Positions 4,220 through 56,545 of a DNA stretch of 64,000 nucleotides are shown piece after piece. Where the stretch lies: assembly GCA_002105175.1 (NCBI GenBank), contig MCGE01000003.1, positions 1,426,001-1,490,000 on the forward strand, in the 5' to 3' direction. The position numbers were made by a program, and so were the translations under genes. The notes below the pieces were generated by a model. It made no database searches, had not been told where the DNA came from, and was given only the letters and a program-made list of their open reading frames with translations. Each line of letters opens with the position of its first letter. Position 1 is the stretch's first letter. This DNA comes from Absidia repens. Taxonomy: Eukaryota > Mucoromycota > Mucoromycetes > Mucorales > Cunninghamellaceae.

Positions 4220-5490
4220 CGCAACAAAAGTCGCGGGCTGAATATATATAGTATATTCACTACACTCGACATATGGTACTAGTTGATTGATATGAATGAT
4301 GGAGCAGACATTAAAAAACAATCTCCTGAGCACTTCCTATTATTACGAATATTACAACAGCGTGCTGTCCAGAATAAAAGGAAAATAATCTACAGTACTC
4401 TACGATACAACGGCGGCTACATTCACTACATGACCAATCTTATTAATATGATAGGTCGAAGTGGGAATAAACTCATCTTTCATATTAGATAACCTCGGAC
4501 TCCATCCAGTCATTGTAGCTATTGTGGTGGGAGGCTAAGAATAGTCATAAAGAAGGAGTGAATGATCGATAGCGCCTTATATAATGGTAAAATTGCTTGG
4601 ATTCATGAATATGAGTAGCTGAGCGGATAGAGAGCTATCTTTGATACTAAATGACTTTGGACGATCAACAATTCGTTAGTATTATATTGGGAGAAGCAGT
4701 GAATGAACTAGAAAGTAGGTGTTCGATAGATAACTCAAAAAAAGAGCTATGATAACGTTTTTATCGTTAATAATACTTAAGAGGATGAATAATGAAAAGA
4801 CATATTTTATTTAAATGAATATGGTAAATACTATACTAATCCCCCGGGGTTCATTGTAACAAGGGATCTAATGGAGGTACATCAGCACGAGGGAAACTAC
4901 ATTGAGATCTAAAGAATGACAAACACGAATCTAAATGGACAACTGTAAAATGGGAATCAAATAATGCACAGTTTATGACAAGAACAAAAGCAGTGGTATT
5001 TATGGAAACTTGCGCATAGTCAAAAAGTGTGATTGTAGTAAAAAAAGGGATCTATTGTAGATGACATGAAGGAAGCCTCTGGGATATATTTCTTTGAAGC
5101 AAGTAAAAAGACACGAATTTTATTCAGATGTAAATAAAAACTATGAACAAGCTAATACTAATCTAACACTAAACTAAGCTAATGAAGGCTCCAAAGCTAA
5201 CTACTGAAGATTCTAAATCCTAGATCCAAAATGAAAGGATTTCCCCATGCATGTTGTAATCCCTGAGCTGAAACCCCTTCTAAACTAGTCCTGACAGTAA
5301 TCTAAGTCCAATACGGCCACATAGAAGTTGAATGGTGAAGAAAAATTGAAATGAAAAAAAAAGGAAAGAGAGCCGAAAAAATAAAATAGGCGGGAGAGAA
5401 AATAAATATTTCACGTGGGCGGAATCTGAAATCTTTTTTTTTTTTTTGTGGAAGTAGGTCGAACGATTTTTTTCCTTCACAAAAAAGGTC
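4220..5490 (+). repeat. Dispersed repeat family, copy 1
   Basis: About 1.27 kb that recurs, diverged, at 16.2-17.3 kb, 44.1-50.5 kb (interrupted) and, inverted, at 55.5-56.5 kb. The left end (GGCTGAATATATATAGTAT near 4229) is poorly conserved. The right third is strongly conserved: a core starting CTAAGCTAATGAAGGCTCC (about 5174), then ATCCAAAATGAAAGG, GTTGTAATCCCTGAGCTGAAA, a GAATGGTGAAGAA block, an A/G-rich tract, and the terminal motif CACGTGGGCGG (CACGTG at 5412-5417). Internal CATATTTTATT motifs lie near 4801 and a degenerate one near 5115. It encodes no recognisable protein and shows no clear terminal inverted repeats, so its class (non-autonomous element, or relic) is open. Confidence 0.8.
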
Positions 5491-5917
5491 TCCCCTTTTT
5501 TTTCCATTTGAAAAAGAAAGAGAACAAGGCCAGGCATTGGGTTTCTAAAAGAATACTGTGACAGTGTAAAATAAGCTAAATTTTTAAATCTGTCGTCCAC
5601 GCTTCAATCCACTCCCCTAACACTCGACATGTACGTACTTCCCGAATCTTCAACGTTGTGTTATGAAAAAGTGATCTCATGGTGCCACAAGGATCAAAGG
5701 AATATGCATAATTGCCAAGACAGTTTTCATTTGTATTTTGTTTGAAGGCTTTGAATTTTATTGTATATACTATTTATATGGATTCAAATGGAGGATAATA
5801 ATTATGAATATTTATGATGTAAGGGGAAATATGTGGAACAGGAAAGGAAAAAGAGACCACGCTCAATTTTTTTTTTCTATTTGGTATCATGATTTGCATT
5901 TTCTACAGTGCAGCCTC
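5491..5917. other. Intergenic stretch right of repeat copy 1
   Basis: AT-rich sequence leading to the 3' end of the small minus-strand gene at 5918. The short open frame at 5738-5995 on the plus strand is antisense to that gene and has no recognisable content. Confidence 0.35.
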
Positions 5918-6127
5918 TTAGAGACCACCGCCACTTCGCCCAACATCCACGAGACTAAGACCATTGTTGATTTTCATCCATTGTTGTTGTCCTGATTTAT
6001 CGGAGCCCTTTGATGTCATAATATGTGTGTGTGCTGGAGAGGGTTGACTGGTGGATCGAACATAGGTGGCATAACCAGCAGCACCGGTAACAATTGGAGT
6101 GAGAATAAGAGCAGCAGGACGAGCCAT
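5918..6127 (-). CDS. Small hypothetical protein with one N-terminal hydrophobic segment
   Basis: A 69-aa single-exon frame beginning MARPAALILTPIVTGAAGYATYVRS. The first about 20 residues form one hydrophobic, glycine-containing helix followed by Arg and a polar, Ser/Gln/Lys-rich tail, consistent with a small single-pass membrane or organelle protein. The ATG is the only sensible one and an A/T-rich leader precedes it. I do not recognise a family. It stands alone between repeat copy 1 and a gene-free AT-rich stretch. Confidence is limited by length. Confidence 0.5.
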   Translation of the reverse strand: MARPAALILTPIVTGAAGYATYVRSTSQPSPAHTHIMTSKGSDKSGQQQWMKINNGLSLVDVGRSGGGL

Positions 6128-7569
6128 AATGAATAATTTTTATTTGATTTGAATTTTTGTATGTATTAATGTATGTATTAGGAAAAATAGAAAAAAAGGC
6201 CGTCCTTTTATATTCCAGAAGAGCCAACGCTATCGTTATCTACAAATCAGAACTAAGACCCTTTTCTTTACCGGAGTTTGAGATGACGTACAGGAACATG
6301 CGGATTTTATAGCTGCGTCTAAATCTCAATGCTTTTATGGTCAAACGCTATCACTTGTTCTTCTCACGCAGTTAGATAGTTAACTTTTTTTTTTTTGTGG
6401 CGGAATATGTAATAATGATGACAATTCAACTAATCGAGGAAAGAGATGATAGCTATAATGAATATTTTGATAGATAATGATGGTATAAGCCTGTTTAATC
6501 GAGTGAATGAGACTTTGGGTAATTGATGTCAAAAGCCCACACTTGGCACTTATTTATCGATTCACATCGTTTCACACTTTAAACAGCCGTTTAACAAATG
6601 CTTAAAAAAGAGGGGGGAACCGATCTTTAGTATATAGTTTAGTTGCCTGTCATTAATATTCCGATAAGGGGTTCTTCCTAATTATGCTTCACTGGCCAAT
6701 AACCTCTAAAATTACACTAATTCAAGAAAAAAAATATGACATGACCTTTTCTCTTCTCCTCCCTGATCATAACATTGCTTCATTGATAACACAATATATA
6801 TGATTAACCTTTTAGTACGCATATTTGATCGATAGGAGAAAGGCAAAATAAAAAAAAAAATAAAAAAAAGGCTCAATCGCATTATACGACCATGATAAGC
6901 AATGACATGTGTAACCATCTGAGGTCATATCGCCGTGGCATGTGTTTAAGATTTGATGGATTTTGAGACTGAAACGGATAAATTTTTACTATGATAGCCA
7001 AAATGCTCTGTCAAATAAAAGGCCTGACACATATTTTTACCATTACGGGAAATAAGACATCGTTAATAGATCAAAATTGATAAGTTGGTTTTCAGTAAAA
7101 AAAAAAAAAAAAAGGGGAGGATGGAAAATATAAAATTAATTTTCAATATTTTCATGAAGATAATCAATTTTCTAGTGCATTCGTTGTCAGAATATGTTTC
7201 AAAGCTAAGTTTTAAAAAAAGAATAAATGTAAGCTTCTTTTTTGTCTTGATGAAAGTGAGACAACGATGATGCATATTTTTGTGGGGAGAGCGGCGTTTC
7301 AAAAAGTTCAGGCACCCAAAGAAATATATTGATCGCTGTGATTTTATCATCGTCAAGTTTAAAATGGCACAAACACTATGATTTCCAAGTTCTGACTTCT
7401 TTTTTTTTTAATAATTTGTTGGAATGTTAGTATACACGTCAAATAAAAAAATATTCCGCTTATATAAACTCATATGATTTATTATTCCGTACTGATTTTC
7501 CAATTTCTTTCTCTCATCTAATTCTATCTCTTCATATACCATATAATACTATCTTATCTTACTACATAA
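6128..7569. other. Long AT-rich intergenic region
   Basis: About 1.4 kb without a convincing gene. Poly-A/poly-T runs (6383-6396, 6846-6868, 7097-7113) break all frames. The right end should contain the promoter of the plus-strand GPI-protein gene starting at 7570; TATATAAAC at 7461 lies about 110 bp upstream of the ATG and may be its TATA element. Confidence 0.4.
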
Positions 7570-8254
7570 ATGACTTGCTCTATTTTTTTCGCACTCATGC
7601 TTGTGTCTATGATGGTGATGGTGGTCAAAGCAAACATGTCACCTTCATACCCAGAACCCGGCAGCGTATGGACGACTGGCAAAGAATACGAAATTACTTG
7701 GGGTATTGTTGCATATAGATAAAAAAAAAACGGAACGCAGTAACGCCTTACTGATTTTTTTTTATTAGAGGAAGACAATGCTGAGCCCACCATCAATTCT
7801 ACATGGAAAAACTTCCGAATTGGTAATTTTTTTTTTTTTTTTTTTTTTAGCTAGGATCATCGTGTCTCAGACTAATGTGCATATTTATTAGATTTAATGA
7901 CTGGGGAGGACCTTGACCAGCAGTTATTGACAAATATTGCTGAGAATGTTAAAGGAGATGCCATGAAATATAAATACACAGCGCCTGAAGTGGCTCCACA
8001 CGCCCCGATTTACTTTTTGATGTTCACCAGCGGTAAAATATATATATATATAAGCTGCGAAATTTACTTGACACTTTTGACTGAGGTTTTTTTTTTTTTT
8101 CTTTAACATAGACAATGGGGAAAATGCGTGGTCCTCTAGATTTTCTATTGTGAGCCAAGATGGAAAACAAGAAGTACCAGAAAATTCCGCTCAGCCTAAT
8201 GGTACTACTTCATATCTTTCAAAAGAAAGGTGTGAAAGGCCTATCCTTTGATAC

Positions 8255-8293
<39 letters not shown>

Positions 8294-8650
8294 GTAGGCG
8301 AAAAAATCCCTTGGGGTACTGGTAAATTGGTAACAGATGCTTTATCAGCTTCATCATCTTCCTCAGAAGGATCAGCGGAAGTTGTCGATAAGAGTAATGC
8401 CTCTGCTTCCCCCGCTATAGCAGCACCATCTGCTCCTGCTAACCAAGGCTCAAAATCAATCAATACCGCCTCTGCCTCAGCATCAAATGCCCATTCTGCC
8501 TCCACTTCTCCCTCTAACGCCTCTGCCCGTAAAGGAAATGTCAGTGCTTCTCAGAAGAAACAAATGTCCGATGCTATTTCACATACGTCGGGCGTTTTCC
8601 CTCTTGCCGCTGCCTTTATTTCAGCTGCTGTGGGGTGGTTTTTGTTCTAA
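7570..8650 (+). CDS. Secreted GPI-anchored protein with Kre9/Knh1-like domain
   Basis: Five exons (7570-7702, 7769-7822, 7892-8032, 8112-8201, 8298-8650), all introns in phase 1, give 256 aa. Residues 1-21 are a signal peptide (MTCSIFFALMLVSMMVMVVKA). The next about 100 residues contain YPEPGSVWTTGKEYEITW and a C-terminal SRFSIVSQDG strand, the pattern of the fungal Ser/Thr-rich GPI-anchored family related to Kre9/Knh1, whose members act in the cell wall, often in beta-1,6-glucan matters. A Ser/Ala-rich stalk (about residues 150-235) follows, likely O-glycosylated. The C-terminus ends in a hydrophobic segment (GVFPLAAAFISAAVGWFLF) typical of a GPI-attachment signal. Intron 4 ends in a 34-T run just before its acceptor. 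Exact biochemical role is not shown by sequence. Confidence 0.88.
8259..8292 (+). repeat. Poly-T run (34 nt) beside a splice acceptor
   Basis: Uninterrupted T tract in intron 4 of the GPI-anchored protein gene, ending four bases before the TAG acceptor at 8295-8297. It acts as, or has expanded from, the polypyrimidine tract. Confidence 0.85.
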
Positions 8651-8721
8651 AAAAAAAGAAGGCCGATTATAGTCATACAATATATTCCAAAAAAAAGTAG
8701 TACTATTTTTCTTTATTTGAC

Positions 8722-12729: not shown

Positions 12730-14302
12730 TCATTCCTGTAAAACTGGGAGCGGTTCCTTATTGTGTCCAGGTGCCGTATCATTGGCTTTCACTTGGTCCT
12801 TTGACTCGACAAATGTTTCCTTCCATTTCCGCATCAAATGCTGACATCGTTCCTGAATGTTGAATTCTGTATCGTTTTCAAATTCATAGTTGATCCCGCA
12901 CTTGACCACCTTGCCAATTTTTGTATGCTATACATAAATATATACTATCAGTAACTATCCATATTTCCGTCCAATATTTGCCTAATCCATTCCATTTCCT
13001 TACCCTTAATAAATCATATGTCATTGGCGCTTCTTCCACGTCCTTGAGTGTCTGTGAGATCTTGGGATAATCATCTAATGGAATTGAGCCCTAGAACAAT
13101 CGAATGATATATAAATACCTCTGGAATCCATTCACCACATTAATGTATTTCAACACAGTTTTTGCTTCCTATTCCTCTTTACCTTTTCCTTTTCATACAT
13201 CAGTTTTTGTAGTCGGTGTCGAAGATGATACATTCTTTTGAATTCGCGGGTAATTTCTAGTGGGACATTATCCTTGGATGATACTGATGTTGTGCTTGAG
13301 TGATCATTTCCACTTGATTGATGATTTTCCTTCTCCATTGACAATGACTTGCGCTACCATTAAAAACAAACAAACAAACAAATTAGTATTCAAACACGAT
13401 ATTCTATAAGCCACATCTTTACACACTACCCCTCTTTGTTGTTCATTGCGCCGTGTCTATCGTACATACCCTTTTCTTCTTATCCATCGAGTCGCTGCTT
13501 TCAGTAATACCGCGTTTGTTGTCATTTTTATGCTTATTCGATTGGGTATCCATGTCTTCATCACTTGAGGCCCTTGATGCCCCTGATTTCTTGGCAGATG
13601 CTGGTGAAGATCCTAATGCCGTTTCCGATGATTTTGCTCTAGCAGATGTGGCCTTCTTACCATCCTTCCTAGTTGATTTCTTCTCTCCTTGAGGTATTTC
13701 TTCTTGTTCATTATCTTTGCCATGATCGTCATCGAAGTCGTATATTCCATCTTCCATCAATGCTGGGTTCAGAGCTTCGCGTACCGCTAATTCTAAATCC
13801 TTTGTTTTGAATTTTTTCGCCTTCAGGTCCTTTTCTACATTGGCTTTGTCGAAAGGTCGAATCGAGTCCGGTCCAAAAAACCCACTAACATGCAATAAAA
13901 GGAAAAAAATAAAAAAAAAGTTTCAGTCTGGTGAATACCCATGATTGATAAGTTGTAATAATGCCCTTGTAATGAATGTGACCTACTCTCTCTATGCACT
14001 TACTAGTCCTTTGAGCCGAAGAAAAACACAGTCCATAGAGGCGCCTTTGCCTTGGTCTTTTGTTTCATCACCTTGAATGGCACCATTCGTTCATCTTCAA
14101 TCTATAAAACAAACCAAGCGAAAACAATACAGCGTGTTTAACAATTGTCGTCATCTACCTGTCCGCCACTACCGGAATGTCCTTCACTGTAACCACGTTA
14201 CTTTTCTTCCTTCCTTACCTTTGCTGGCCACCAAGGGTATCCTTTCAATTTTGCAAATACAATTGTTCCAGGTGGATAGGCGTCGTCTTGTTGTTGAGCC
14301 AT
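12730..14302 (-). CDS. PWWP-domain protein with C-terminal IBD/TFIIS-N-like domain (HDGF/LEDGF-like architecture)
   Basis: Six exons (14302-14219, 14101-14004, 13884-13470, 13353-13183, 13090-13004, 12927-12730) give 350 aa. Residues about 10-85 are a PWWP domain: PPGTIVFAKLKGYPWWPAK opens it, and WTVFFFGSKDYGFFGPDSIRPF closes it. Such domains read methylated histone tails on nucleosomes. A Lys/Ser/Ala-rich, basic linker (about 120-225) follows. The C-terminal about 110 residues are helical, with RLQKLMYEK, a T..L..T.IGK core and LMRKWKETF, the pattern of the integrase-binding/TFIIS-N-like fold of HDGF2/LEDGF. That fold binds transcription-elongation and chromatin partners. The IBD call is by pattern only. 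Expected site: nucleus. Confidence 0.85.
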
Positions 14303-14638: not shown

Positions 14639-14786
14639 CTATTCAGTATATTGACGGACGATCTTATTAAACGCCTGTAACAAAGAATGACGCCTATGAT
14701 ACGTCGCCCATCCAACATACCCCAATGTACATGCCGTCAAAATCAATGTAGATCGTCTAATCCATCTATAATTGCCTAAACTATTT

Positions 14787-14823
<37 letters not shown>

Positions 14824-15826
14824 CACTGCCAGTATTAGCAGGAGAGATAAGCCGAGATTCCACTACACGACGGTTTTGATCCAACATCATCCGAAGATGC
14901 CTAGCAAGTTCATTGTCACTGTATCCACCATCCGATCGGATCCAACCTTCATAATCGCGGCATTTTTGACCTTGTTCCACACCAAAGAAACCCACTTGAT
15001 TCAAACGAGGTAAATAAAGTGTATAAGCCGGCATATATGTATCCACAAAAGCCCGTACCGCATCGTCCGCCAATCCTTCGACGTTTCGTGTTTGCCGCAT
15101 GTAATGTTCTTGTTGTAACCGCCATTGATACACTTGCTCCAGTTCTGTCGGTGCCAGATGTAAGAAAATATCCATCTTGGGATAGAGAAGCTGTTCATAC
15201 TTGACCAGAAATTCGTTGATGACCTCCAAATGATGCAAAGAGTGATGTTGTCGTAGGATGTCGAACTGTTGGTGCATTTGCTGTAGTTGGTCTGAACTGA
15301 CTGATTTGAATCCCAGAGACCAACCTTCAAACAGGATGATGTCCACTTGTCCGTGAATATGCTGCCAATCCTTGCGTTCGAGTCGATCGCCTAGTCCGCC
15401 ATAAAGTGACTTATCGTAAACAGGAATAGAGACAGTTGAGTCGGGTCCAGCCGCCAAAAGTGCATCAAAGGTTGTTTCGGCCAAGGCCAAGTCATGGGAT
15501 CCAGGTTGCCCGCGGTATTGTAAGAGCCGGTTATCAGAGTTGCGCGATCCGAGTGCCGCCTGTTCATCCCGTGTTAAGTACAAGTCATCCAAGGAGAAGC
15601 TAACCACATTATAGTTGTGAGCATCGGTACGAAGCAAATGCACCAATGTAGTGCACAATGTTGTTTTCCCACTGCCTTGGCATCCTGAAACACCTACCAC
15701 CAAAGGCTTGTGCCTGAGATTCCTAGCTTGTCTGTCTTGCATAAACCGTTTGTAATGATCAAGAATATAGTCTAGAGATTCTTTCGTCTGTGGGAGAATA
15801 GCATAGTTGGATGAGGAAGACGCCAT
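14639..15826 (-). CDS. P-loop kinase, Tda10/plant-type glycerate kinase-like, with C-terminal membrane segment
   Basis: Single exon, 395 aa. A Walker A motif GVSGCQGSGKTTL (residues about 44-56) begins a P-loop kinase fold; FSLDDLYLT and the IILFEGWSLGFK strand, with the RGQPGSHDLAL segment between them, match the family of yeast Tda10 and plant D-glycerate 3-kinase. The reaction would be ATP-dependent phosphorylation of a small molecule such as glycerate, although fungal members lack firm substrate proof. Compared with the roughly 290-aa yeast protein it is about 100 aa longer: after a poly-Ser tract (about 335-350) there is a hydrophobic helix (STLILTACTLGYVGWATY) followed by basic residues, which could anchor the C-terminus in a membrane. 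Confidence 0.87.
14778..14820 (-). repeat. AGT trinucleotide tract coding poly-Ser
   Basis: Plus-strand CTA repeats (about 14 units) in the kinase gene, coding the Ser run between the kinase domain and the C-terminal hydrophobic helix. It keeps frame, as expected for a triplet microsatellite. Confidence 0.8.
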
Positions 15827-16219
15827 TTAAATGAATTTTTTTCTATAGAGTAATAAAAGAAAAAGGAAACACAGAGGCGAGAAACGGAGAAAAACGACTG
15901 GCAAGGAAAATAGATAATTGTAACCCCGCATCATCCGGCCAATCATTTAGCCAATCTCATTGCAAAACTCCATACATTCTTATTATTATGCAGTTCAAAA
16001 TATTTTTATATCCAGTTTCAAATATCCTGACACTTGCCAGAAATTCTAGATCTACTGAGTGTCAGGGGGCGGGGAAGGAGTTGTTAATATACGAATTTTG
16101 ATGAAATCAGGCACTTCCGTCATATTGCAACCCCTTAATAGACCGCCCCTCGGCCCCAACTGACTACAGTTTAGCGATGAGGGCTTAAAACTACTTTCAA
16201 AATATAAATAAAATAATGA
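15827..16219. other. Intergenic left of repeat copy 2
   Basis: Kinase promoter region followed by AT-rich DNA with no gene. A GC-richer patch (16055-16160, with GTCAGGGGGCGG) stands out but matches nothing I know. Confidence 0.35.
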
Positions 16220-17325
16220 AAATATAATGAGCTGGGTATATATAGTATGTCCATTTTATAGGGGGCTGGCGGTGCTGTTTAGGTCTATAATTATGAATGA
16301 TTGAGCAGTAATAGCTCCATGTTTCATATCAAGTGACCTAGAGCATTGTTAACATGTCGCTGGGTTTCGGGACATAAACAAGTAATTATGAATATACTAG
16401 AAAACAGTACAAACTGCTCTATAGCTGTGGATACATGCATAACTCGATCTAGATTCATCTATATAATCGGTCGACTAGAAATATGACTAACTTTGCAGTA
16501 AGTGAACTAAAACTACCAACTAGTTCTTCCAGCACTAGGGAAAAATAGCCATAGTGGATAAACTAGAAGGTAAATTTTTAGCAGGACATTCATAAAACAA
16601 ATACAATAGCGCCATTGTTTATTTCCATATGAGTCAGAAAGTGTTTAGTAAAAAACAATATTTTATTGAAGCATAACTGATGGATACTAAAATTGAGGTA
16701 TGGGATTCAACATAACAATGGATTTAACGGAAAGATTTATTGGAGGAAGCTTGAGGGAGATTAAGCTAATGAGATCTGAATAATGGTCAACAGTAATCTC
16801 AAGGGACAGCTGTGAAAAGCACTCTGGTATATTGCGCAGGGAATGAGAAAGACTATGAATGGATATCTTTCATTAAAGTACAGTACAGCAACTGTTAACA
16901 CTAATCAAAAGAAGACGATGGTAATAAAAAAGGGATCTAATGCACAAGACATGGAAGAAATTAATGGGACAAATTTCATTGAAAGCAAGTAAAAAGACAC
17001 ATATTTTATTCAGTTCTTGATATAAACTAAAATTAAACTGAGCTAATGAAGGTTGCAAGAAACCAACTAATGGGTGGTTCTAAATCCTGAGTCCAAAATG
17101 AAAGGGTTTCCCCATTCATGTTGTAATCCCTGAGCTGAAAACCCTTCTAAACTAGTACTGCCACTAATCTAAGTCCAATTTAGCCTCAAAGTAGTTAAAT
17201 GGTGAAGAAGAAAAAACTGAAAATGAAACGAAAAAGAGAGCAAAAAAAAATTCGGGGTAAATAAATATTCACGTGGGCGGAATTTAAAATTTTCTGTGGC
17301 CTCATGAGGACTAGTTTTGTCGATC
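16220..17325 (+). repeat. Dispersed repeat family, copy 2
   Basis: About 1.1 kb homologous to copies 1, 3 and 4. The left part begins near GAGCTGGGTATATATAGTAT (about 16230) and is only moderately conserved, best against copy 3 (for example TAGATTCATCTATATAATCGG against TAAATTCATTTATATGATGGG). Internal ATATTTTATT motifs lie near 16660 and 16995. The conserved core starts near 17036 (GAGCTAATGAAGGTTGCAAG) and ends with CACGTGGGCGG (CACGTG 17270-17275) and a decayed GAGGACTAGTTTTGTCG tail. The uninterrupted GGGTTTCCCCATTCATG at about 17105 shows what the site looks like without the LTR element that splits copy 3. Confidence 0.8.
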
Positions 17326-43485: not shown

Positions 43486-44079
43486 GACGTCCGCTACGAC
43501 AGAATGATGTGTGTGTGTGTGTGTGTATAGTGATTTATGAATATACTTTTCTTCTTCTTGATGGCGTGGATTGTCTTTAGGTTGGTGATACCCACTTTTT
43601 TTATATACATACACACCACTGGTTTAATTATTCTTTATTACCTTCATCATGCCCCCCTTCCACATCTGACTTTTTATATATATACATATTTTTTTTGTGG
43701 TGATAGACTATGTATTTGTTTGTTTATTTTTTTTTTCTTTTCTTTTTTTTTTTTTGGTCTTCAATAAAAAAAATATATATCGTCCAATAGAAAAAATGTT
43801 TTTATATTTATGAATATCATAAACACAGGCGTGGCAGGAAATGGATAATTTTTGTATTCAAGATATCATGTGAACAATGTAGAACCGGGTCTCAGTTATC
43901 TTGAGGATTTATATTTTGGTAGTGGTATGGGTGTGTATGTGTCTATATATATATATGTGTGTGTGTGTGTGGTGTGTGTATTTTGCTTTGACTATAGCTA
44001 AATACTATGGGTTAGTTATCATTTGCACTGCAGAAAAACAATCGTCATAGAAAAGAACAAAGAAAGAAAGAAAATAATA
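43486..44079. other. Intergenic, 3' flank of the kinesin gene
   Basis: Contains (TG)n runs near 43510 and 43955, T-runs, and AATAAA at about 43764, a likely kinesin poly(A) signal. No gene seen. Confidence 0.45.
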
Positions 44080-44833
44080 AGCTGGTTCTATGCAGAATAT
44101 TCAGTCTATTGTATTTTCTGTTGGTGGTCCCGTTTAGATTGATTGATATAAATGGTAGAACGAGAATACAGCTACATTTTATATATAGTGACCGAGAAGT
44201 GTCAATCAGTACCTAGGCGTAGGTAAGCTAGAAAGTAATATAAATTACTCTATTGAAGACTACACGTACAACACGACCTAAATTCATTTATATGATGGGC
44301 TGAGCATAGATATAGCTATTTGATAGTAAGTAATCTAAAACTTTCAACCAGTTTCCGGAAGGGAAGGGGGAGGGAGAAGTAGTTATATTAGGTGAATCAG
44401 AGAGAAAGTCTTTGGTATCACACTCAAAATTGCTATAATAGCGACATTGTTTATCATACGGTGATTCAGAGCACGGGTAATAAGAAGACATATTTTATTA
44501 ATGCATATGGAAGATATTAAAACTAAAGGCGAGAGGTCATTGTAACAGGGGATCAATCAATGGAAGGATCTAAGGGGAAAACATGAGGGAGCCTAATGGG
44601 GATCTGGAGAATGGTCAACACTAATCTAAACCGGCACAATGATAAAAAGGAATCTCTTACGCAGGGCATGAAACAGACTATTGCGACATTTTTAATTGAG
44701 AGAGGTAAAAAAGAGGCATATTTTATTTAGATACATATACAAAATATGTACCAACTAACACTATACTAAGCTAATGAAGGCTCCAAAAAGCCAACTAATG
44801 GGGGGCGCAAAATCCTAGATCCAAAATGAAAGG

Positions 44834-44838
44834 GTTTC
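44834..44838 (+). repeat. Target-site duplication GTTTC, left copy
   Basis: GTTTC directly precedes the left LTR and recurs at 50226-50230 directly after the right LTR. Other repeat copies have a single GGGTTTCCCC or GGATTTCCCC at this point, confirming a 5-bp duplication on insertion. Confidence 0.9.
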
Positions 44839-45121
44839 TGATATAGAGTGAAGATTTGTTGTGTAAAAAGAACCTAATTTATTAAAAGTGGGTATTTAGC
44901 ACCCACATCATATTTACATAAAAGAGAAATGAAGGGCGAATAAAATAACACTTACCGACTATGGCCGGTTCAATAAAGTATGTTAAAAAGTAGAGTGGTT
45001 TGAGATAAAAAAATAAGAGGAAGAAGAGAAAGAATGGAAGGTGTAAAAAATATAAACTAAAAAGGGGTAAAAAAAACTAAACCCGAAATGTCAAAATCAT
45101 AAATAAAGCTAAATCACATCA
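44839..45121 (-). repeat. Long terminal repeat (3' LTR of the element)
   Basis: 283 bp, TG...CA ends, identical by eye to 49943-50225. Contains a perfect 6-bp inverted repeat GTGGGT/ACCCAC around a 7-nt loop at 44888-44906. Confidence 0.92.
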
Positions 45122-45132
45122 GTCTCCCCAAC

Positions 45133-46989
45133 TTAATCAGAAGTTATCTGGTTAACCTCTTCATCGGGTTGTCGATATAACTTCAAGTTTTTGGCGTTGA
45201 CCTTATGTTTGAATTTTGTTCCATCTTCTTCCATCAACTCGTACGAGTTATGAAATCCTTTGATGATACGATAGATGATTGGGAAGTATTTGGGATCAAG
45301 TTTACTTTGTCCCCTACGCTTGGAATTGACCATTATAACTTTGTCGCCAGTCTTGAATAGAGGTTTTCCTTTTGCTTGCTTCGATTTTGCTTCTAATTCC
45401 ACAGCATTGGTTTCGAGTGTTTTCCTTAAGCCCCACAATCTGACCAATCTTTCATAGCCAATGACCTTGCCAATCTTAAACAGAACGTCCTCCATAGGGA
45501 AAACAGGGCTTTGTCCATATAATGCTTCGAATGGGGAAATTTTCAATCTAGAATGACATTTGATACGATAAGCATATAACGCAGCAGGTAATAGTAGGTC
45601 CCAATTTTCTTGTTGTTCTTGAGCGATTTTTTTGAGACTTCCAATGATGACACCATTAATTCTTTCGACCATTCCATTACATTCAGGATAATAGATAGAG
45701 GTGAGTTTGTGATTTGTTTTTATGATTTCCAAAAATTGCTTGACAGTATGATTTAAAAAATGTACCCCATTATCCGACAAGAGATGAGTGGGAGGGCCGA
45801 AATTACAAAACAATTCAGAATACATGAATCTAGCAGCAGTAATGGCATCGTTATCCTTAGTAGCGAGGGCAATTGGCCATCTGGAAAAGTTTTCCACCGC
45901 CAGGACGATGAATTTACTTCCTCTTGACGTGACAGGAAAGGGTCCAATAAAATCAATGCTGAATTGTTCGAAGAGTCTTGTACCAACCACATGGTGAGAG
46001 TAATGTGCTTCAATGCCACTTGAGAACATTTGGCAGTCGTGACATGATTGTAGAAAATGCTTGAGATCCTTATAGGCAGAAGGCCACCAATAATGAAGGT
46101 ATAAAATTGACCAAGAAGATTGCGATCCGAAGTGACCATGTCCATCGTGTATCATTTTTATGATACTTTGTCGTTCCGGAATGAAAGGGACAACCACTGA
46201 CCGTTCGCCGACACGTTTGTTTAATTTTCCATTGTGAATAAAGTAAAATCGAGCTTGTTGTTTAACTTTGGAATTGAAGCGTTGAGACCAGGGATGTTGT
46301 AAGAATTTGAAGATCAAGGCAAGTTCAGATTCGTAAAAAGCATCCATTAATAAAAGACCATGATACAGAAATTCGATGTCGTCTTGTCCATTTGATATGG
46401 GTTCATGCGTTGGAGGAAATCTTGACAGTGTGTCGGCTACCACATTCTGTTTACCAGGGAGATGTTTTACAATGAATGAGTATTCCAGGCAACAAAGGGT
46501 CCATCTTTGTAAACGTTGTGAGGCATCTTGCTTGACAAACAGATAGGTCACAGCTGAATTATCTGTGAAAAGGAAAAATTCCTTATCCAAGAGAAACTTG
46601 CGAAATTGCTTGAAAGCGTAGACAACGGCTAACAATTCTTTTTCCACGGTGGGATACTTGATTTCAGCAGCTTGCAATTTTCTTGATATAAAAGCGATCG
46701 GCACATATTCATTTTCATCTTTGTGACATAGGGCGGCACCTATACCGATGTCAGAAGCGTCCGTGAACAGATAAAAGGGCTTGTTTGGATCAGGGTAAAC
46801 CAGTAAACATTTCTGAGACAACAACGATTTCGCTTGTTGGAAACACTTTTCCATCTGTTCAGTCCAGGTAAAGTATGCGTCTTTTTTGAGAAGAAGAGTC
46901 AAAGGAGCCGTTTGATCCGCAAACGATTGTACATGTCGACGGTAAAATCCAATAATGCCTAAGAAGGCTCTGACATCCCTTTGGCACAA
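45133..46989 (-). CDS. pol: Retrotransposon pol, downstream part: RNase H and integrase
   Basis: A 618-codon open frame, best viewed as the 3' part of pol rather than a separate gene. It opens in the RT connection region (RDVRAFLGIIGFYRRHV), then RNase H (LFTDASDIGIGAALC, EKELLAVVYAFKQFRKFL, LFTDNSAVTYL) and the integrase: an HHCC-type zinc finger (HDGHGHFG...CHDCQMF), the catalytic core with Asp in SIDFIGPFPV, Asp in LLSDNGVHF and Glu in YYPECNGMVERING, and a C-terminal module (DKVIMVNSKRRGQSKLDPKYFP). It overlaps the upstream frame at 46959-46989 in another phase. All catalytic residues look intact, so the break upstream is the only visible defect. Confidence 0.9.
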   Translation of the reverse strand: MCQRDVRAFLGIIGFYRRHVQSFADQTAPLTLLLKKDAYFTWTEQMEKCFQQAKSLLSQKCLLVYPDPNKPFYLFTDASDIGIGAALCHKDENEYVPIAFISRKLQAAEIKYPTVEKELLAVVYAFKQFRKFLLDKEFFLFTDNSAVTYLFVKQDASQRLQRWTLCCLEYSFIVKHLPGKQNVVADTLSRFPPTHEPISNGQDDIEFLYHGLLLMDAFYESELALIFKFLQHPWSQRFNSKVKQQARFYFIHNGKLNKRVGERSVVVPFIPERQSIIKMIHDGHGHFGSQSSWSILYLHYWWPSAYKDLKHFLQSCHDCQMFSSGIEAHYSHHVVGTRLFEQFSIDFIGPFPVTSRGSKFIVLAVENFSRWPIALATKDNDAITAARFMYSELFCNFGPPTHLLSDNGVHFLNHTVKQFLEIIKTNHKLTSIYYPECNGMVERINGVIIGSLKKIAQEQQENWDLLLPAALYAYRIKCHSRLKISPFEALYGQSPVFPMEDVLFKIGKVIGYERLVRLWGLRKTLETNAVELEAKSKQAKGKPLFKTGDKVIMVNSKRRGQSKLDPKYFPIIYRIIKGFHNSYELMEEDGTKFKHKVNAKNLKLYRQPDEEVNQITSD

Positions 46990-49673
46990 TGGTCTGGGAA
47001 TGTCTGAATAACTTCCACCCTTTTAGGATCAGGATAATACCCAAATTCGTTGGCAATAAACCCCACAAAGAAGACCGACCGATCAAAGAACGAGCATTTA
47101 TTGGCATTAAGAACCATATTGGCGTTTTTGATACACGCAAAGAATTCTTCCAGGTCAAGGAGATGTTTGTTTGGAGAAGGGGAGTGTACAATGATATCGT
47201 CGATATAGGCCACCACAGACTTGTTTAATAATTCATTTAAAGCAAGGTAGATAGCTCTACAGAAGGTAGAGGGACCATTTTGTATACCAAAAGGCATTAC
47301 CACATAAGAATAGTTCCCAAAAGGAGTAGCGATGGTGAGTTTATTTATGGAAGAATCTTGTACCTTGATTTGATGGAATCCCTTAAGAAGATCCATGGAA
47401 GAGAATAAAGTTGATCCCCCCAATTGTTCCAATAATTCAATCATAATGGGCAACGGCCATGTATCTCTGACCGTAACTTTGTTCAAATCCATAAAATTTG
47501 TGACCAAACGTTTATCACCAGTTTTCTTCTGGATAAGCCGACAAGGGAATGACCATCCCGAAGCTTTGGAATTAGAAGGAAGATAAGTAGTAGGAATAAT
47601 GATACCATTATCAACCATGGCAGTGAGTTCTTGTTTCAAAAATTCCTTTTCCTTGAAAGAGAGATTTCCATAAGGTCTATGGTAGATAGGGAGAGCATCC
47701 CCGGTTTCGACATGTAGAGTGGTAACATCCGTTTGTCTGAGATGTTGATAATCAGTTCCAAAACAATCAACATTTCTTTGAATACAGCCAGTGACTTCAT
47801 CTACCATATTCAAATCTTGAATGACCCTGTTGGATTGTATACGACTAACAAGGTTACCAAGGCGAGGATCCACATCATCATTTTCTGAAGTATTTGAATC
47901 AGCGAGACCAGCAAATGCCACAAGATAGGCAGGGGATTGATCCTGTTCGGTAGGTGATGAGATAATGGATTCAGACGAAACTTGAGAAGAGGTATCGCTG
48001 TCACTATCTTCAATAGATTCAGGGCTAGATTGGGGAGGGAAATTTCCAGTGAGCCTGGTGTGGCGATAGGAAACCTTCAATGGCGATTTATTTCCTTTAG
48101 TATCCATGACAGTCCAAGAGTGTGTTTTCCAATCAGTGTCTATACCCAGAGCATGGAATGCCAACCTTCCAACCAAGAAGTCATAATCATCCACATCCAG
48201 ACAGACGGCTTCAACCGAAACATCCTTGGATTTACCAACAGAGATGAGTAAATTCTTTAATAGACCGAGAGGAGTCACAGTTTTCCCACTAGCCATCATT
48301 AATAGAGTATCCGTAGCATCAAGTTCATGGATTCCGAGATACAAAGCAAGGTTTTTGCTTATAATACATTGGGTAGCACCACCATCCAAAATCATAGGGC
48401 AGTGACATCCTGCAACCATACCTTGTGTGTGAGGTGCAGAATTTCCTTCAGGCAGAGCAAATTCAACTGATTGAGAGTCAGGTACTAGTTTCAGGGCTGT
48501 TCCTTTCTTGACATGATGCTTGGTGAGACCATTTTTCAATGTTGTTCTTATGCTTGGACTAAGATCAGCTAATTGAGAGAGTGAGACTGAGAAGACAGGT
48601 TCATTGAGGAGTTGAATGGCATCCAAAGGATTATCAGTGAGAGGGGTAACATCAGAAGAAGAATTGATTTTAACCTTCAACCGTTTGTTTGGAGTAGCTG
48701 TTTGTAGATCTGCTTCCTTCGCCTTCCTGGTAATGGCCATGGCATCCGTAACCTTCAGGACTTCGGGTAAACATAGTTTTGAATCAACAGCAGGCGTGGT
48801 TTTTTTATGTTGTTCACAATCATAAAACCTATGGTCACCTTCACAGTATTTACAAGGCCTCTTGCATTTGCTAGGACCATGACCTTTTTCATTACAATTT
48901 GTACAAGGATAGTGGGAGCGTGGGATAGACTGTGTACTTTGAGCCTTTGAAGATGACGCCGAATCTGAATTCGCATCCACAATATTTTTCGACATGAGGA
49001 CCACCGTCAGCTTCTTCACTGATTCAACTAATTCCTCCACGTTGGTACTGTTAGGAAGGATGGTAGGTTGACTGATGATTCCAGGCTTGGTTACCAGCTT
49101 GGATGAGATAGAGTCTTGAGAGGATTTAGAGGAACTTGAATGATCAGAATCTAATGACGAGTCCGATTCGTCTTCAGAGCCAGAGAGGTCATTTACATCC
49201 CGGAAACCCTGGATGAAGCTTGCAACAGTGACATAACCTTGCATCCTCAAAGCACAGCGAAGAGATTTGGATTTCAGGCCCTTGATGATGTTTTTGATTA
49301 CAAGCAATTCAAAGGAAGGAATGGGTTCACCAGAATCATTGGCAATAGCTTTATAAGAGGTCCACAATTTGTCTACACGATGGATGAATTTACGATTGCT
49401 TTCTCCACGTTTTTGCTTGATGGAAGTGAGCTTTGAGTAGTAAGTAAAGACGTTTTCCTTTTTCATGTATCTATCCTTGAAGTCCTTGACAAAAGATTTC
49501 CATGAGGTGTGTGATGATCGGATAGCCCAAGATTGGGCCGAGCCAGTCAGAGACATGACGGCCCTGGTTAGCTTTTCATCTTCAGGCCATTCGTTAAATG
49601 AAGCAATCCTTTCAAAGACGGTGAGCCATTCACCGTAACGCTTGTCTAGAAGTTTCGGGGCTTTCATTGACAT
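46959..49673 (-). CDS. gag-pol: Retrotransposon gag-protease-reverse transcriptase polyprotein
   Basis: One open frame covering gag, protease and most of RT; it stays open back to the primer-binding site (49940), but the first ATG likely to start gag is 49673 (MSMKAPKLLDKRYGEW). Gag has the retrotransposon capsid pattern (WLTVFERIASF, SWKSFVKDFKDRY, GYVTVASFIQGFRD) and a CCHC knuckle (CTNCNEKGHGPSKC) followed by a second Cys-rich part. The protease active site reads MILDGGATQCIIS; RT has FCRAIYLALNEL and the YIDD catalytic box (YIDDIIVHSP). Gag and protease-RT share one frame, with no stop or shift between them. The frame closes at 46959 inside the RT C-terminal region, just where homologous elements continue. 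Confidence 0.9.
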   Translation of the reverse strand: MSMKAPKLLDKRYGEWLTVFERIASFNEWPEDEKLTRAVMSLTGSAQSWAIRSSHTSWKSFVKDFKDRYMKKENVFTYYSKLTSIKQKRGESNRKFIHRVDKLWTSYKAIANDSGEPIPSFELLVIKNIIKGLKSKSLRCALRMQGYVTVASFIQGFRDVNDLSGSEDESDSSLDSDHSSSSKSSQDSISSKLVTKPGIISQPTILPNSTNVEELVESVKKLTVVLMSKNIVDANSDSASSSKAQSTQSIPRSHYPCTNCNEKGHGPSKCKRPCKYCEGDHRFYDCEQHKKTTPAVDSKLCLPEVLKVTDAMAITRKAKEADLQTATPNKRLKVKINSSSDVTPLTDNPLDAIQLLNEPVFSVSLSQLADLSPSIRTTLKNGLTKHHVKKGTALKLVPDSQSVEFALPEGNSAPHTQGMVAGCHCPMILDGGATQCIISKNLALYLGIHELDATDTLLMMASGKTVTPLGLLKNLLISVGKSKDVSVEAVCLDVDDYDFLVGRLAFHALGIDTDWKTHSWTVMDTKGNKSPLKVSYRHTRLTGNFPPQSSPESIEDSDSDTSSQVSSESIISSPTEQDQSPAYLVAFAGLADSNTSENDDVDPRLGNLVSRIQSNRVIQDLNMVDEVTGCIQRNVDCFGTDYQHLRQTDVTTLHVETGDALPIYHRPYGNLSFKEKEFLKQELTAMVDNGIIIPTTYLPSNSKASGWSFPCRLIQKKTGDKRLVTNFMDLNKVTVRDTWPLPIMIELLEQLGGSTLFSSMDLLKGFHQIKVQDSSINKLTIATPFGNYSYVVMPFGIQNGPSTFCRAIYLALNELLNKSVVAYIDDIIVHSPSPNKHLLDLEEFFACIKNANMVLNANKCSFFDRSVFFVGFIANEFGYYPDPKRVEVIQTFPDHCAKGMSEPS

Positions 49674-49675
49674 TT

Positions 49676-49815
49676 TGGTTTGTTTAGTTGGTTGTTGATT
49701 CGATTGATTTGGTTGATTTAGTTGATTTGGTTGATTTGTTTGGTTGTTTTTGTTGATTTTGTTGCTTTTGTTGTTTTTGTTGTTTTTGTTGATTTTGTTG
49801 GATTTGGTAATTTTG
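49676..49815 (-). repeat. Short tandem repeats in the retrotransposon leader
   Basis: Imperfect 6-9-bp units (plus strand TTGATTTGG and TTGTTTTTG types) that read on the minus strand as Asn/Lys then Asn/Gln/Pro repeats upstream of the gag ATG. Probably leader sequence, although the frame is open through it. Confidence 0.7.
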
Positions 49816-49919
49816 AAGTGTTTGAATAGACAAAGTGTTTCAAAAATATAAATATTTTGAGGAAAGGTTTCGAAGGTGAGATTCGTTACTATTGTTGAGA
49901 AAGACGAGTATACGATAAT

Positions 49920-49940
49920 CTCCCCTGTAGTGAGCACCAA
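49920..49940 (-). other. Primer-binding site of the retrotransposon
   Basis: Two bases inside the 5' LTR, the minus strand reads TTGGTGCTCACTACAGGGGA; the TGG start complements a tRNA CCA end, as expected for tRNA-primed reverse transcription. The primer tRNA is not identified from this window. Confidence 0.7.
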
Positions 49941-49942
49941 TT

Positions 49943-50225
49943 TGATATAGAGTGAAGATTTGTTGTGTAAAAAGAACCTAATTTATTAAAAGTGGGTATT
50001 TAGCACCCACATCATATTTACATAAAAGAGAAATGAAGGGCGAATAAAATAACACTTACCGACTATGGCCGGTTCAATAAAGTATGTTAAAAAGTAGAGT
50101 GGTTTGAGATAAAAAAATAAGAGGAAGAAGAGAAAGAATGGAAGGTGTAAAAAATATAAACTAAAAAGGGGTAAAAAAAACTAAACCCGAAATGTCAAAA
50201 TCATAAATAAAGCTAAATCACATCA
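49943..50225 (-). repeat. Long terminal repeat (5' LTR of the element)
   Basis: 283 bp identical by eye to 44839-45121; hairpin GTGGGT/ACCCAC at 49992-50010. It should hold the promoter for the genomic transcript reading leftward. Confidence 0.92.
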
Positions 50226-50460
50226 GTTTCCCCATGCATCTTGTAATCCCTGAGCTGAAAACTCTTCTAAATTAGTCCTGACACTATTCTAAGTCCAACA
50301 TAGTTTCAAGGAAGTTGAATGGTGAAGAAAAAAAAGGAAAGGAAAAAAGAAACTGAAAAGAAAGAGCAAAAAATCAAAAAGTGAAGAAAATATTAAAAAA
50401 TCCACGTGGGCGGGTTTTGAATTTTGGGAGGGGGTCTGGTTAGGATTTTGGTTTGTCGCT

Positions 50461-51787
50461 ACGAAAAAAGGATCACTTATTTTTTACAGCACTCAACACC
50501 ATAAAATATCATCAACATGGTGTTTCATTTACCGTGATATATTTTAAGACAAGAGGGAGCGTTTTGGTATAGTTTAATCAACACCTTTCACTGTCGAATA
50601 GTTTGTCGTTTACGTTCAGATATCCTCCCCACACGCACCGCATTTATCTAAATACACCGCTAATATTCTCATACTTAGGTAGATTTTCTGGTTCCATAAT
50701 TACACTAGTTTACGTAGTTTAGTTGTCGAAGTTTATACCTACATCTGAATAAATTATGTTTTGCTTTTACAGTGCCTCTAACATGTTTAGTTTATCTTAT
50801 TGAATTGGTATACCTACTCTACACTTTATAGGTCAGTAGAGAGCCTATGTGAGTAAACAAAATAAAAAAAGAAAAGGATCTGTTAGAGGCAATATCGGTC
50901 AGCCGCTATGCTTAGAGTTTCGTATAATAATATACCGTTCTGGGCTTCGAAACATAGTAATGAGAGAATTTCTTGTATGACTTTAGAAAATGACTTTGTT
51001 GGCCACATGAAAAGAGATGGTGAAGAACGCAAAAAAAATAAGCAGGGACTAGGCATAAAAATATGATAATTGAAACGCACTGGAAGGTATTTAGTTCACT
51101 CGCATAATTATCCCTTTTTTTTTTTTTTGATAAACACTCCCCGACCCTTTACCACCATCAACTAACAACATAAATATCCTTGACATTTCCGTGAGATCCG
51201 ATTTTTTTTATGTGTGTGCTGAACCACTGCACAATGCACTGCACTGTACATACGGTAATGCATAGGAGTGCGCAATAATGAAATCCAAAGTTTCAATAAA
51301 TATGAATATATCATATAACGGGGTCTTATACGAATAAACAAAAAAAAAGAGCTGGAATAGCAGTAATCATATTACACTAAACTGCACAACCTTGCATCCC
51401 CCTCCTCATCCTTTCCGCCCAAGCAAGCCCAAAAAAATATTAACTAAACATCTGGAGCGGATTTCCTTCACCGAGATATCAAAAGACATGGTCTAGAGAG
51501 TATCATGCACCTTAACATACTGGGGCATCTTCAGTATATTTACAATACTAAATCAGTCAATCTCATAACGGCACAATGATAAAAAAAAAAAAAAAAAAAA
51601 GAATGTGTACACAATTGGAAAGATATTTTATTGATATTTTATTAAATAAAATTGGGACTATGGTGAGATTGTAAAGGATATATAATATACATGAGGATAA
51701 AAATGAGGGAAATGAAGAAGTGGAAGTGGTAAGTACTAACTAAAATTCACCAGGAGGACCAGCTGCAGAGTATACACGAGTCGATTG
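50461..51787. other. Intergenic right of repeat copy 3
   Basis: About 1.3 kb without a gene. It holds a small inverted relic of the repeat family (about 50735-50775), poly-A/T runs (51117-51128, 51580-51600) and, at the right end (51620-51655), two minus-strand AATAAAATATC motifs that fit the dehydratase poly(A) signal. Confidence 0.45.
50735..50775 (-). repeat. Small inverted fragment of the dispersed repeat
   Basis: TACCTACATCTGAATAAATTATGTTTTGC closely matches TATCTACATCTGAATAAAATATGTTTTACC at 55787-55816 in copy 4. Flanks share only weak likeness. Confidence 0.55.
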
Positions 51788-53651: not shown

Positions 53652-55454
53652 GATGTAAAATGATATAAAATAAAGAGAGAAGGGGCGGGGTGAGGGGAAG
53701 CAAAAAGAAAAAAAAAAAAAAAGGAAATAGGAAAAAAAAAGGTGCGAACCAAAGGAAAATGAAGGAACACGAAAAAATTGTTTTGGTCGCGCAACTTAAA
53801 AAAAGCCTATCATGAACTGTGAATGCTGAATCTCCTTATTCGCCGTTTAGAACCCAAAGCCACATTAGATGGCCATTATTACTCAACACAGTGTCAATAA
53901 AAGGTTATCCGTTATCATCGACGTTTGAATAAAAATGTACGGCATGGACAGTGAAAATAGAGAGGTATATAAGGATCAAAGGGTGGCTCAAAGTCAATGA
54001 TGAATTAGTGATGTTTATATGCTATAAGAATGGGTGGAAAAAACCAACTGACAATAACTAATTTAATATTCAGATCGTTTCGTTGTATATATTCTCGCCA
54101 GTTTGATTATGACTGCCCCCCATATCTTTTTTTTTTTTTTTTTGGCTGCAGTTATGTACTATTCAAATCCACCAAGTCATCCCCCTTATAGAATCACCAT
54201 TTTATGTTAAATCATAAACAAGCTGTAAAATTGAAGTGTATATACATTTTGTTATTTGCGGTCAATTAAAAGTGGATGAATAGACTGGCGTTCTACCTCG
54301 TCAGATTACTGCATGAATATCCAAAGAAGTACCATAATATTTAGAGGTTTTATTGCTAATCGTTCCATCATTGAGATCCGTTACACCAAACCAGACCAAG
54401 TGGAATATGTCGATCAATCATTGTAGAAAATTTAGGCCAGTAAAATTAAAAGTCAGATAGAATCACCTTAACCACTTTAATGAGCACGGTTCAGGACACT
54501 TCTACTTTGCATTGGCATTTCCAAAAAATAAAACATTTTGATTTTTCTATGTATGTGATAATTACGTAAATAAATGGCCCTCACAAATTTATAAGTTAAA
54601 TAGAAAAAGGTCGCCTCCGCCGTTTTTTTCTTCGCCCGTATTATGAAATGAAATAGATTCTCCCCCCCTGTTCAGTATCAGCATCACCTCATATCATGGA
54701 TTTACCTTGTTTATTCACTTTGTTCCAGTTTTCCACGAACCTTCTATTTCTAAAGCCCCTCAAAAAATTCCTCCCACACTTATTTTCAAGTCCATGAGAT
54801 GAATTGTTGAGCACAAATGTTGGTAGAAGCCGTCTCATGCTCAAATATATTTCTATTTAATTTATTTGCACATGCACAACTGCTTTTTCTCCACACGCAC
54901 ATGTACCGTATACAATGCACCGATCCAACAATACAAACCAAACGTAAGAAAGACAAATAATAAAAATGCAGTATGTTTTTTTTTAATTGTAGATATAAAC
55001 TATGACAATAAACAATATAAACTATGACAGTAAACCATAATACATATCTCATAAGACGAGGAGACGCGCACGGAATTTGTATAGAGATTAATGAATATGT
55101 AAAGTGAGAGTGTGCCAGTGGGAATGGTTGAACCTAGTGATGTGGGGGCTGGGTGTTTTGTTGCAGAGTAAACATAACGAGAATAAACAATTATATAATG
55201 AAGGGGTAAACGAAAATAGGTAAAACTATAATATTTGATCTGCAAAGACATCAATAGAAGAGAAGGATCATGCTGTCAACCTTGGCTGGTAAGGTTACTG
55301 CCATAAGAAGATGTGGTCGCCGTGCTATCATTATTGAATGATGAGACTCTCCCCCATTAGAAGAGAACCACCATGGTTATAATGTTGTAATATGCTGGCT
55401 GTTGTAAAATACGGGGTGAGATATTCCTTTTTTGTATTCACCAAAAAAATAAAA
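53652..55454. other. Long gene-free intergenic region
   Basis: About 1.8 kb of AT-rich DNA; poly-A/T tracts at 53707-53742 and 54126-54142. Short minus-strand frames at 54786-55254 are hydrophobic/Tyr-rich artefacts of AT-rich DNA. No repeat, RNA or gene recognised. Confidence 0.45.
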
Positions 55455-56545
55455 ATCGCAAACCAAAAATCCTCACTAGAGACCAAAAAAAAAAAAACGT
55501 AATTCAAAGCCCGTCCACGTGAAATATTTATTTTCTTTCTCCCGCCTTTTTTTTTTTCGTCTCTCTTTCTTTTTTTTCATTTCAATTTTTCTTCACCATT
55601 CAACTTCTATGGGGTTATTTAGGACCTAGAATGGTATCAGGACTAGTTTAGACCGGTTTTCAGCTCAGGGATTACAACATGCATGGGGAAATCCTTTCAT
55701 TTTGGATTCAGGATTTAGAACCAACATTAGTTGAGCCTTTTGGAGCTTTCATTAGCTTAGTACAGTGTTAGTTTGTCCATAGTTTGTATCTACATCTGAA
55801 TAAAATATGTTTTACCTTTTATATGCTTCAATAAAAAAATGTTCCATGGGTCTCGTTCACGTTGTACACAGGAGATCCTTTTTTACAATCCCTTCCAATT
55901 AGTGTTGAGTGTTATTTTGCTTCAATAAAAGATGTCCCTTTTGCCTATTTCATGCCTTATGCTTTACATTAAATTACTTATTGTAATCGACCATTTAGAT
56001 TATAGTTGACTATTTTCAATCTTGATGCTTTGTTATGATAAACCACCGCACCCTTAGTATAGCATTTACCATTTATCCTTCAATAAAATATGCTTTTATT
56101 ATTGGCATGCTCTGATCTATCGGATTGTGATTAACGTCGCCAGTGCAACTGTTTGATGAATGTCGTATGAAGCACTTATATTATTTTTCCTACTATAGTC
56201 TTAGTGACTGGTAGACAGGCCTAGCTCATTTAATACCAAACGTTGCCCTATTCCTGCTCGGCCATTTATATTACTTAGTCAAGATCATGATTGCCAGCGT
56301 AGCCTTTTCTATAAAATAGCCTCGATATTTTTTATATTTTATTCAAATTATTTGTTCTACATATTATGTGGATGCACCTTTCATTCTATTGGTGCTTAGC
56401 TGCATTACGTAAACTATTTATTGGTGCTGGACTCTATTTTAAACAGCATATAATTTATTTATTTATTGGAATTGAGTGTGATATTTTCTATAGCTACCCT
56501 AAATAGCAAATATATTTTGCATTTGATAATCTCTAAAATGTTTAT
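55455..56545 (-). repeat. Dispersed repeat family, copy 4 (inverted)
   Basis: About 1.1 kb, opposite in orientation to copies 1-3. Reading the plus strand left to right: a GGTTTGCG/CCTCACTAGAGACC tail (about 55460), CCCGTCCACGTGAAATATTTATTTT (CACGTG 55516-55521), CT-rich tract, TTCTTCACCATTCAACTTCTAT, TTTTCAGCTCAGGGATTACAAC, the core with GGAGCTTTCATTAGCTTAG (about 55743-55760), then AATAAAATATG-type modules at 55799, 55829, 55921 and 56080. The right third (55.5-55.8 kb) is close to copy 1; the left end near 56545 is diverged. Confidence 0.8.

Follow-up and report, generated by a model that had tools for sequence, protein, structure and literature searches.

A dispersed non-coding repeat of Absidia repens with a conserved core that may be kept alike by ectopic gene conversion

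Four repeat copies and a nested retrotransposon

The window analysed here, a stretch of 64,000 nucleotides from contig MCGE01000003.1 of the fungus Absidia repens (assembly GCA_002105175.1, positions 1,426,001 to 1,490,000 of the forward strand), contains four copies (W1 to W4) of a dispersed non-coding repeat organised around a block with CACGTG at its heart. The repeat is a real genome-wide family with a conserved core, and the copies examined show no sign of recent spread. An earlier note, made from the letters of the window, had described four copies in both orientations, lying between genes and better conserved in their right part than in their left, and these observations stand: the copies are recovered by motif, core-word and profile matches, they do not overlap the window's long reading frames, and the right part is indeed the better conserved. 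With up to three mismatches, the end motif CACGTGNGCGGNATTTGAA occurs four times in the window as against 0.06 matches expected, and the core word CTAAGCTAATGAAGG five times as against 1.42 expected, four of these lying in the copies and the fifth (at 14209, with three mismatches) being at chance level.

W1 lies on the plus strand, its left arm, core and linker occupying 4079 to 5411 (profile matches at 3907-4544 and 4542-5431, with the far-left profile starting at -1333) and its CACGTG block and a remnant of the right arm occupying 5412 to 5507 (motif at 5412-5430 with one mismatch; right-arm profile columns 1-91). Its most conserved core block, which falls on columns with few non-consensus bases, spans 5224 to 5267. 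W2, also on the plus strand, extends from 15996 to 17294 with its CACGTG block at 17270-17288, past which no right arm is recognisable. W3, again on the plus strand, is present as two pieces, a left one at 44065 to 44838 found by profile matches and cut within the conserved block, and a right one at 50226 to 51213, found by motif and profile, which carries the remaining core, the linker, the CACGTG block (50403-50421) and the right arm up to 51213. W4 lies on the minus strand, with its left arm, core and linker at 55522 to 56312 by profile matches, the outer edge being uncertain (the earlier note had placed it at 56545), and its CACGTG block (55503-55521, by motif) and right arm at 54649 to 55521 (right-arm profile matches at 55521-55319 and 55311-54649). 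The right arm is therefore represented in the window at 50403-51213 and 55521-54649, by a remnant only at 5412-5507, and by almost nothing at 17.3 kb.

The interval from 44.1 to 50.5 kb, which had been taken for one long copy, is the ordinary copy W3 split by a Ty3/Gypsy retrotransposon on the minus strand (44839 to 50225; Pfam gag, aspartic protease, RVT_1, RNase H and integrase domains) that is no part of the repeat. This element of 5.4 kb carries identical long terminal repeats (LTRs) of 283 nt with TG..CA ends at 44839-45121 and 49943-50225, is flanked by the 5-bp target duplication GTTTC at 44834-44838 and 50226-50230, and interrupts W3 at GGGTTTC in its most conserved block. The retrotransposon looks young, and since it inserted into W3, the repeat copy is older than the insertion. 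The claim that the repeat lacks a protein-coding frame holds for the window copies, none of which contains a frame of 150 codons, but not for the interval as originally drawn, where frames are present and belong to the nested element. The possibility that the copies are parts of a known transposon likewise applies to the nested Ty3/Gypsy element alone and, within the tools used, not to the repeat. A coding repeat was also rejected on account of the frame-breaking insertions and deletions seen by eye among copies.

Family size and anatomy of the repeat

In the genome assembly (47.37 Mb in 79 contigs), a 25-mer from the core has 3,958 matches with up to three mismatches, about one per 12 kb, while the reversed control has none. 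The true copy number is likely to be higher, because only 47 of 57 sampled copies pass this limit; at 1-2 kb per copy, the repeat would make up about a tenth of the genome. Exact matches to the core word number 447 (reversed control 1) and those to the end motif 860 (control 0), and every one of 30 loci selected by the end motif alone has the core upstream, so that an early idea of the motif sites as host promoters was dropped, all 30 being repeat copies. Random spacing can account for the gaps between the 77 exact end-motif sites of contig 1, and an even spacing of copies was not seen. An apparent clustering by strand on contig 1 was an artefact of the listing, from which one copy with an exact 25-mer on the minus strand (L010) was absent. 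The exact core 25-mer was not found in the viral or prokaryotic contigs searched, nor was a description of the family found in the literature searched, which left subscription papers, supplements and Repbase outside.

Sixty-six repeat loci were examined individually and are given L numbers where a name is needed. L038 was dropped after the right-arm profile search, being the same locus as L006, and four loci whose end is not matched by the pattern (L004, L012, L017, L025) were left out of most sets and kept in the analysis of arm inversion and AATAAAAT. Per-site variation and linkage were analysed without L042 and L048, tract sharing and flanks without L043, L048 and L063, and the stepwise profile of consensus identity without L019, L029, L031, L048 and L063.

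From left to right, the repeat consists of a left arm, a core of about 330 bp inside the left arm and adjoining the linker, the linker itself, which is rich in purines, then the CACGTGNGCGG block and finally a right arm. The CACGTG block had been regarded as the right end of the repeat; CACGTGGGCGG is not terminal, however, since the right arm continues beyond it (at least 150 profile columns) in 33 of 58 copies, 23 of which built the profile while 10 did not. Copies had been put at 1.1-1.3 kb each; according to the far-left profile, the left arm of those copies that are best delimited extends to about 1.2-1.26 kb leftward of CACGTG. This profile is matched in 38 of 65 copies (10 of which seeded it), the other 27 reflecting loss or decay, and a stretch rich in A, some 1.05 kb leftward of CACGTG, was rejected as the left end because homology continues further. 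Neither precise outer boundaries nor target duplications could be established for the repeat itself, the edges being fuzzy.

The two arms are partly inverted images of each other, with AATAAAAT signals pointing mostly outward. The right-arm profile matches reverse-complemented left arms in 16 of 57 copies (E up to 1), as against none with a reversed-arm control, and of the 12 best inverted matches listed, 10 are located between 183 and 380 nt away from the centre and correspond to profile columns of about 395-604. Outward AATAAAAT occurrences outnumber inward ones by 75 to 20 in 57 left arms and by 13 to 3 in 23 right arms. Because of this symmetry and the outward signals, the repeat is predicted to contain a bidirectional promoter with two short, non-coding, polyadenylated transcripts running outward head-to-head.

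Several further features were observed in individual copies. A-rich stretches follow the right arm in some copies. In L001, L005, L014 and L055, a second kind of right-hand sequence, seemingly common to the four, stands in place of the usual right arm and, in L014 and L055, includes a string resembling TTACCCACAATAACG, while L006 and L021 have in common a different, unrelated-looking sequence right of CACGTG, perhaps another repeat. The left arms of many copies contain diverged units of about 100 bp akin to the stretch that adjoins the core on its left, as judged from weak profile matches, and several of these units carry ATTTTATT. The left flank of L014 contains a near-complete inverted right-arm match (columns 195-914, E 1e-67), as if a second copy adjoined, and a tRNA-Leu-like stretch was seen by eye about 0.87 kb right of CACGTG in L008.

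Graded conservation and its possible causes

The family looks old, judging from sequence divergence, with no close full-length relative for W2, W4 or L007 among the matches scored. Across 57 copies and about 450 columns, mean identity is 70.8% (sd 3.4) with a maximum of 79.5%, save for one pair at 97%. The closest genome relative by score reaches 73% over 842 bp for W2, with shorter matches of up to 79% (best 40 of 3,401), and 77% over 527 bp for L007, with shorter matches of up to 83% (best 40 of 3,649). The core of W4 has relatives of up to 87% over 316 bp (best 40 of 3,763), and its left 706 bp find at best 71-72% over about 170 bp and exceed this only in short pieces of 65-75 bp (best 40 of 71); among these same 40 matches, four of the core relatives recur, only next to the core, and the two closest do not.

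Conservation along the repeat is graded, as had been noticed in the window, and strongly non-uniform: at 323 sites in 55 copies, excluding the selection word, linker and end motif, the non-consensus rate per site departs from uniformity with a chi-square of 1945 (322 df). In 50-column steps along 60 copies, consensus identity starts at 0.60 on the left, reaches 0.89 in the core and drops to 0.70 over the linker and CACGTG block and to 0.65 beyond, the peak lying roughly 200-130 bp left of CACGTG. Although change is quicker at C and G sites than at A and T sites, the slowest-changing part is the core block, which is rich in C and G. A 25-mer from the right arm has 99 matches in the genome versus 3,958 for the core 25-mer and, with up to three mismatches, is present in 8 of 23 right-arm copies versus 47 of 57 for the core, the right arm also being missing from many copies. 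Differing truncation histories, one of the two explanations first offered for the gradient, are not its main cause because the leftward drop in identity persists among copies that possess the left arm; the other, a function of the core, is possible only.

A third reading accords better with the data: the core of this dispersed family may well be kept alike by ectopic gene conversion while both arms decay. Tracts shared between pairs of copies are more frequent than in shuffled columns: 14 pairs score at least 80 as against 0.67 in shuffles, with top scores of 153 and 89 (62 copies, 12 shuffles), and 47 pairs reach a score of 70 as against 2-14 (60 copies, 8 shuffles). The outer parts of the 14 tract-sharing pairs have a mean identity excess of -0.008 over 28 flanks, which means no relatedness outside the tracts, and shared tracts between unrelated flanking parts are what concerted evolution leaves. 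Over 75 bp, L009 and L016, which lie some 600 kb from each other, match at 100%, and over 273 columns at 91%, while their flanks are at 0.63 and 0.51; the best genome match of the L016 tract is the L009 locus (92% over 249 bp; best 40 of 3,566). L042 and L043 are neighbours on contig 1 (about 1,493-1,495 kb), some 2.1 kb apart and in opposite orientation. Their identity is 84% at -500, 96-100% from -450 to -50 and 81% in a step just left of CACGTG, then 92-98% on the right side up to +100; outside this tract of about 600 bp it falls to 0.33-0.65, the background level (about 45% alike), even though in each of the two copies the outer parts can still be recognised as arms of the repeat. Gene conversion leaves just such breakpoints, inside the repeat and with unrelated arms around them. 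Deviations from the consensus, moreover, cluster within copies at a lag of 20 columns (p 0.0005; 1 of 2,000 permutations), and the positions of the tracts follow the conservation peak (rho 0.87). A transposon family with few sources would link distant diagnostic sites; site pairs more than 10 bp apart are below 0.001 in 5 of 5,240 cases, the level of chance, and this absence of linkage points to conversion.

On such a model, the family would once have spread by transposition, by some route, and then stopped. One copy would since have overwritten a stretch of another, homogenising the core of an inactive, ancient repeat, and such conversion would be commonest between copies that still have in common an uninterrupted stretch of sufficient length for pairing, which would make the core self-sustaining. 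It is conceivable, though unlikely, that the core is a genome-wide hotspot of gene conversion, with the roughly 4,000 loci forming one recombining pool in which breaks arise, or their repair is seeded, in the core.

Several observations weigh against conversion as the cause of the gradient. The clustering of deviations is not significant at lags of two and three windows (0.18 and 0.88); tracts are easier to detect in a conserved region, so that their overlap with the peak (rho 0.87) is partly built in; and beyond the two clear pairs, tract scores of 90-105 are only modestly above the shuffled maximum of 89. Conversion may follow from conservation instead of causing it. The family also has sub-family structure, W1 and W4 having a common type of linker and the core of W4 its relatives at up to 87%, and 16 of 5,671 site pairs are linked at 0.001, nearly all of them close together. 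The W4 core relatives possibly lost their left arms. Mosaics could, furthermore, have arisen by template switching before insertion. This last point leads to a different history, in which the repeat is an ordinary old transposable element whose many constrained sources recombined before insertion, variation among the sources mimicking graded conservation; the linker type, the W4 core relatives and the locally linked alternative states at close sites are all in keeping with it, as are the mosaics that template switching is expected to yield. The left arms of the three queried copies, however, are without a close relative among the scored matches, which would call for very many sources, and L042 and L043, as neighbours with an internal tract, are what conversion in place predicts, rendering this history improbable.

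The main rival to conversion is selection by the host, which may contribute to the pattern. Each copy would be a working regulatory element, such as a bidirectional promoter, boundary or terminator, in which purifying selection would maintain the core, the CACGTG block and those poly(A) signals that point outward; as the principal cause, this is possible but doubtful. Per-site conservation is far from uniform, with columns at about 99% beside others at about 50%, a pattern that can reflect either drifting variants among converting copies or functional wobble. As the conservation of CACGTG is overstated in samples selected by motif, it was remeasured on 36 copies not so selected, where CACGTGNGCGG is exact in 19 and has up to two mismatches in 33, while nearly all of 112 random stretches have at least three. 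The outward excess of AATAAAAT in the left arms also fits such elements. The CpG of CACGTG, on the other hand, shows seven transitions among the cases counted in these 36 copies, and about half of the copies lack a recognisable right arm. Some 4,000 selected loci in 47 Mb would be a heavy demand, and the random-like spacing on contig 1 also speaks against selected placement. Host function is, moreover, predicted only, and the mosaic tracts need conversion in any case.

Gene context has a bearing on both explanations. Among 65 copies examined, 14 of the 25 with both neighbours called sit between converging genes, the calls coming from a hexamer model trained on 16 window frames and the convergent expectation of 25% being assumed rather than taken from this genome; on the left the closest coding stretch is directed towards the copy in 23 of 32 cases, on the right in 28 of 38. 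This arrangement would favour function, but a purging of insertions from promoters likely explains the excess of convergent genes just as well. Among the window's own genes, the protein encoded at 14639-15823 is closest to a metagenome protein (72%), followed by those of Chlamydoabsidia padenii (70%), Halteromyces radiatus (65%) and Cunninghamella species (55-58%), among 7,999 candidates scored; this one protein places the host near Chlamydoabsidia, as would suit a mould of the Mucorales close to Absidia.

The distinction between the two causes has consequences beyond this repeat. With about 4,000 old copies and conversion-like tracts in one fungal genome, A. repens offers a place to separate conversion from selection. 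Should conversion be the cause, function could not be deduced from the conservation of a repeat core; should it be selection, thousands of intergenic bidirectional elements would constitute an unrecognised layer of the genome.

Likeness to known systems

Among known classes, the copies could be fragments of a larger element, either solo LTRs or 5'-truncated copies of a long interspersed element (LINE), and the promoter-like and poly(A)-like parts of the repeat, together with the presence of a young LTR retrotransposon in the genome, agree with this. Neither TG..CA edges nor target duplications were found at the repeat edges sampled, which stay fuzzy, the LTR of the window's Ty3/Gypsy element differs in sequence from the repeat, and the window copies are without a 150-codon frame, which together make such an origin very improbable. 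One Ty3/Gypsy LTR retrotransposon does sit inside the span first reported, but as an unrelated young element inserted into an old repeat copy. With regard to LINEs, A-rich stretches lie beyond the right arm in some copies, and the far left arm is matched in 38 of 65.

Other candidates were set aside. A structured RNA was rejected since RNAalifold gives about 0 kcal/mol forward and -0.39 in reverse for 57 copies, with column-shuffled means near 0, and a search of the window, its four copies included, against Rfam gives no match with E up to 1. A short interspersed element (SINE) with a tRNA head was rejected as well, no tRNA being found in the window and none of the tRNA, 5S or 7SL heads of SINEs being recognised there. 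A B-box-like string near the core was dropped as poorly conserved, the RNA polymerase III boxes being judged by eye.

Miniature inverted-repeat transposable elements (MITEs) and foldback elements are, like the repeat, high-copy and non-coding, with inverted homologous segments, and internal inverted homology is found in 16 of 57 copies (control 0). In the repeat, however, these segments are internal, lying about 180-380 nt from the centre on one side and 400-500 nt on the other, and neither target duplications nor terminal repeats could be demonstrated at its fuzzy outer ends. The repeat also has a likeness to gene families under concerted evolution, whose copies stay alike through exchange of fragments, as described in PMC3924837. 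It is, in contrast, non-coding, has thousands of copies over many contigs, and exchanges sequence apparently only in the core while its arms drift to about 60% consensus identity.

The nearest published concept found, by analogy, is that of SINEs with a highly conserved domain (HCD-SINEs; CORE, V, Deu and others), in which an inner domain is conserved much better than its surroundings and the cause of this is still debated, the hypotheses given in the sections of PMC6887750 used here including module exchange and an advantage to the host. Like these elements, as that source describes them, the repeat is short, non-coding and dispersed, and along 60 copies its inner domain is much more conserved than the flanks. 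It differs in being longer (1.2-2 kb), fungal and built around a CACGTG centre with two partly inverted arms, as well as in its lack of a recognisable tRNA, 5S or 7SL head in the window, and the HCDs named in those sections of PMC6887750 are animal. If the core were indeed a conversion hotspot, it would be conserved by copying rather than by usefulness, and the repeat would provide both a fungal counterpart of, and a mechanism for, the conserved domains of SINEs.

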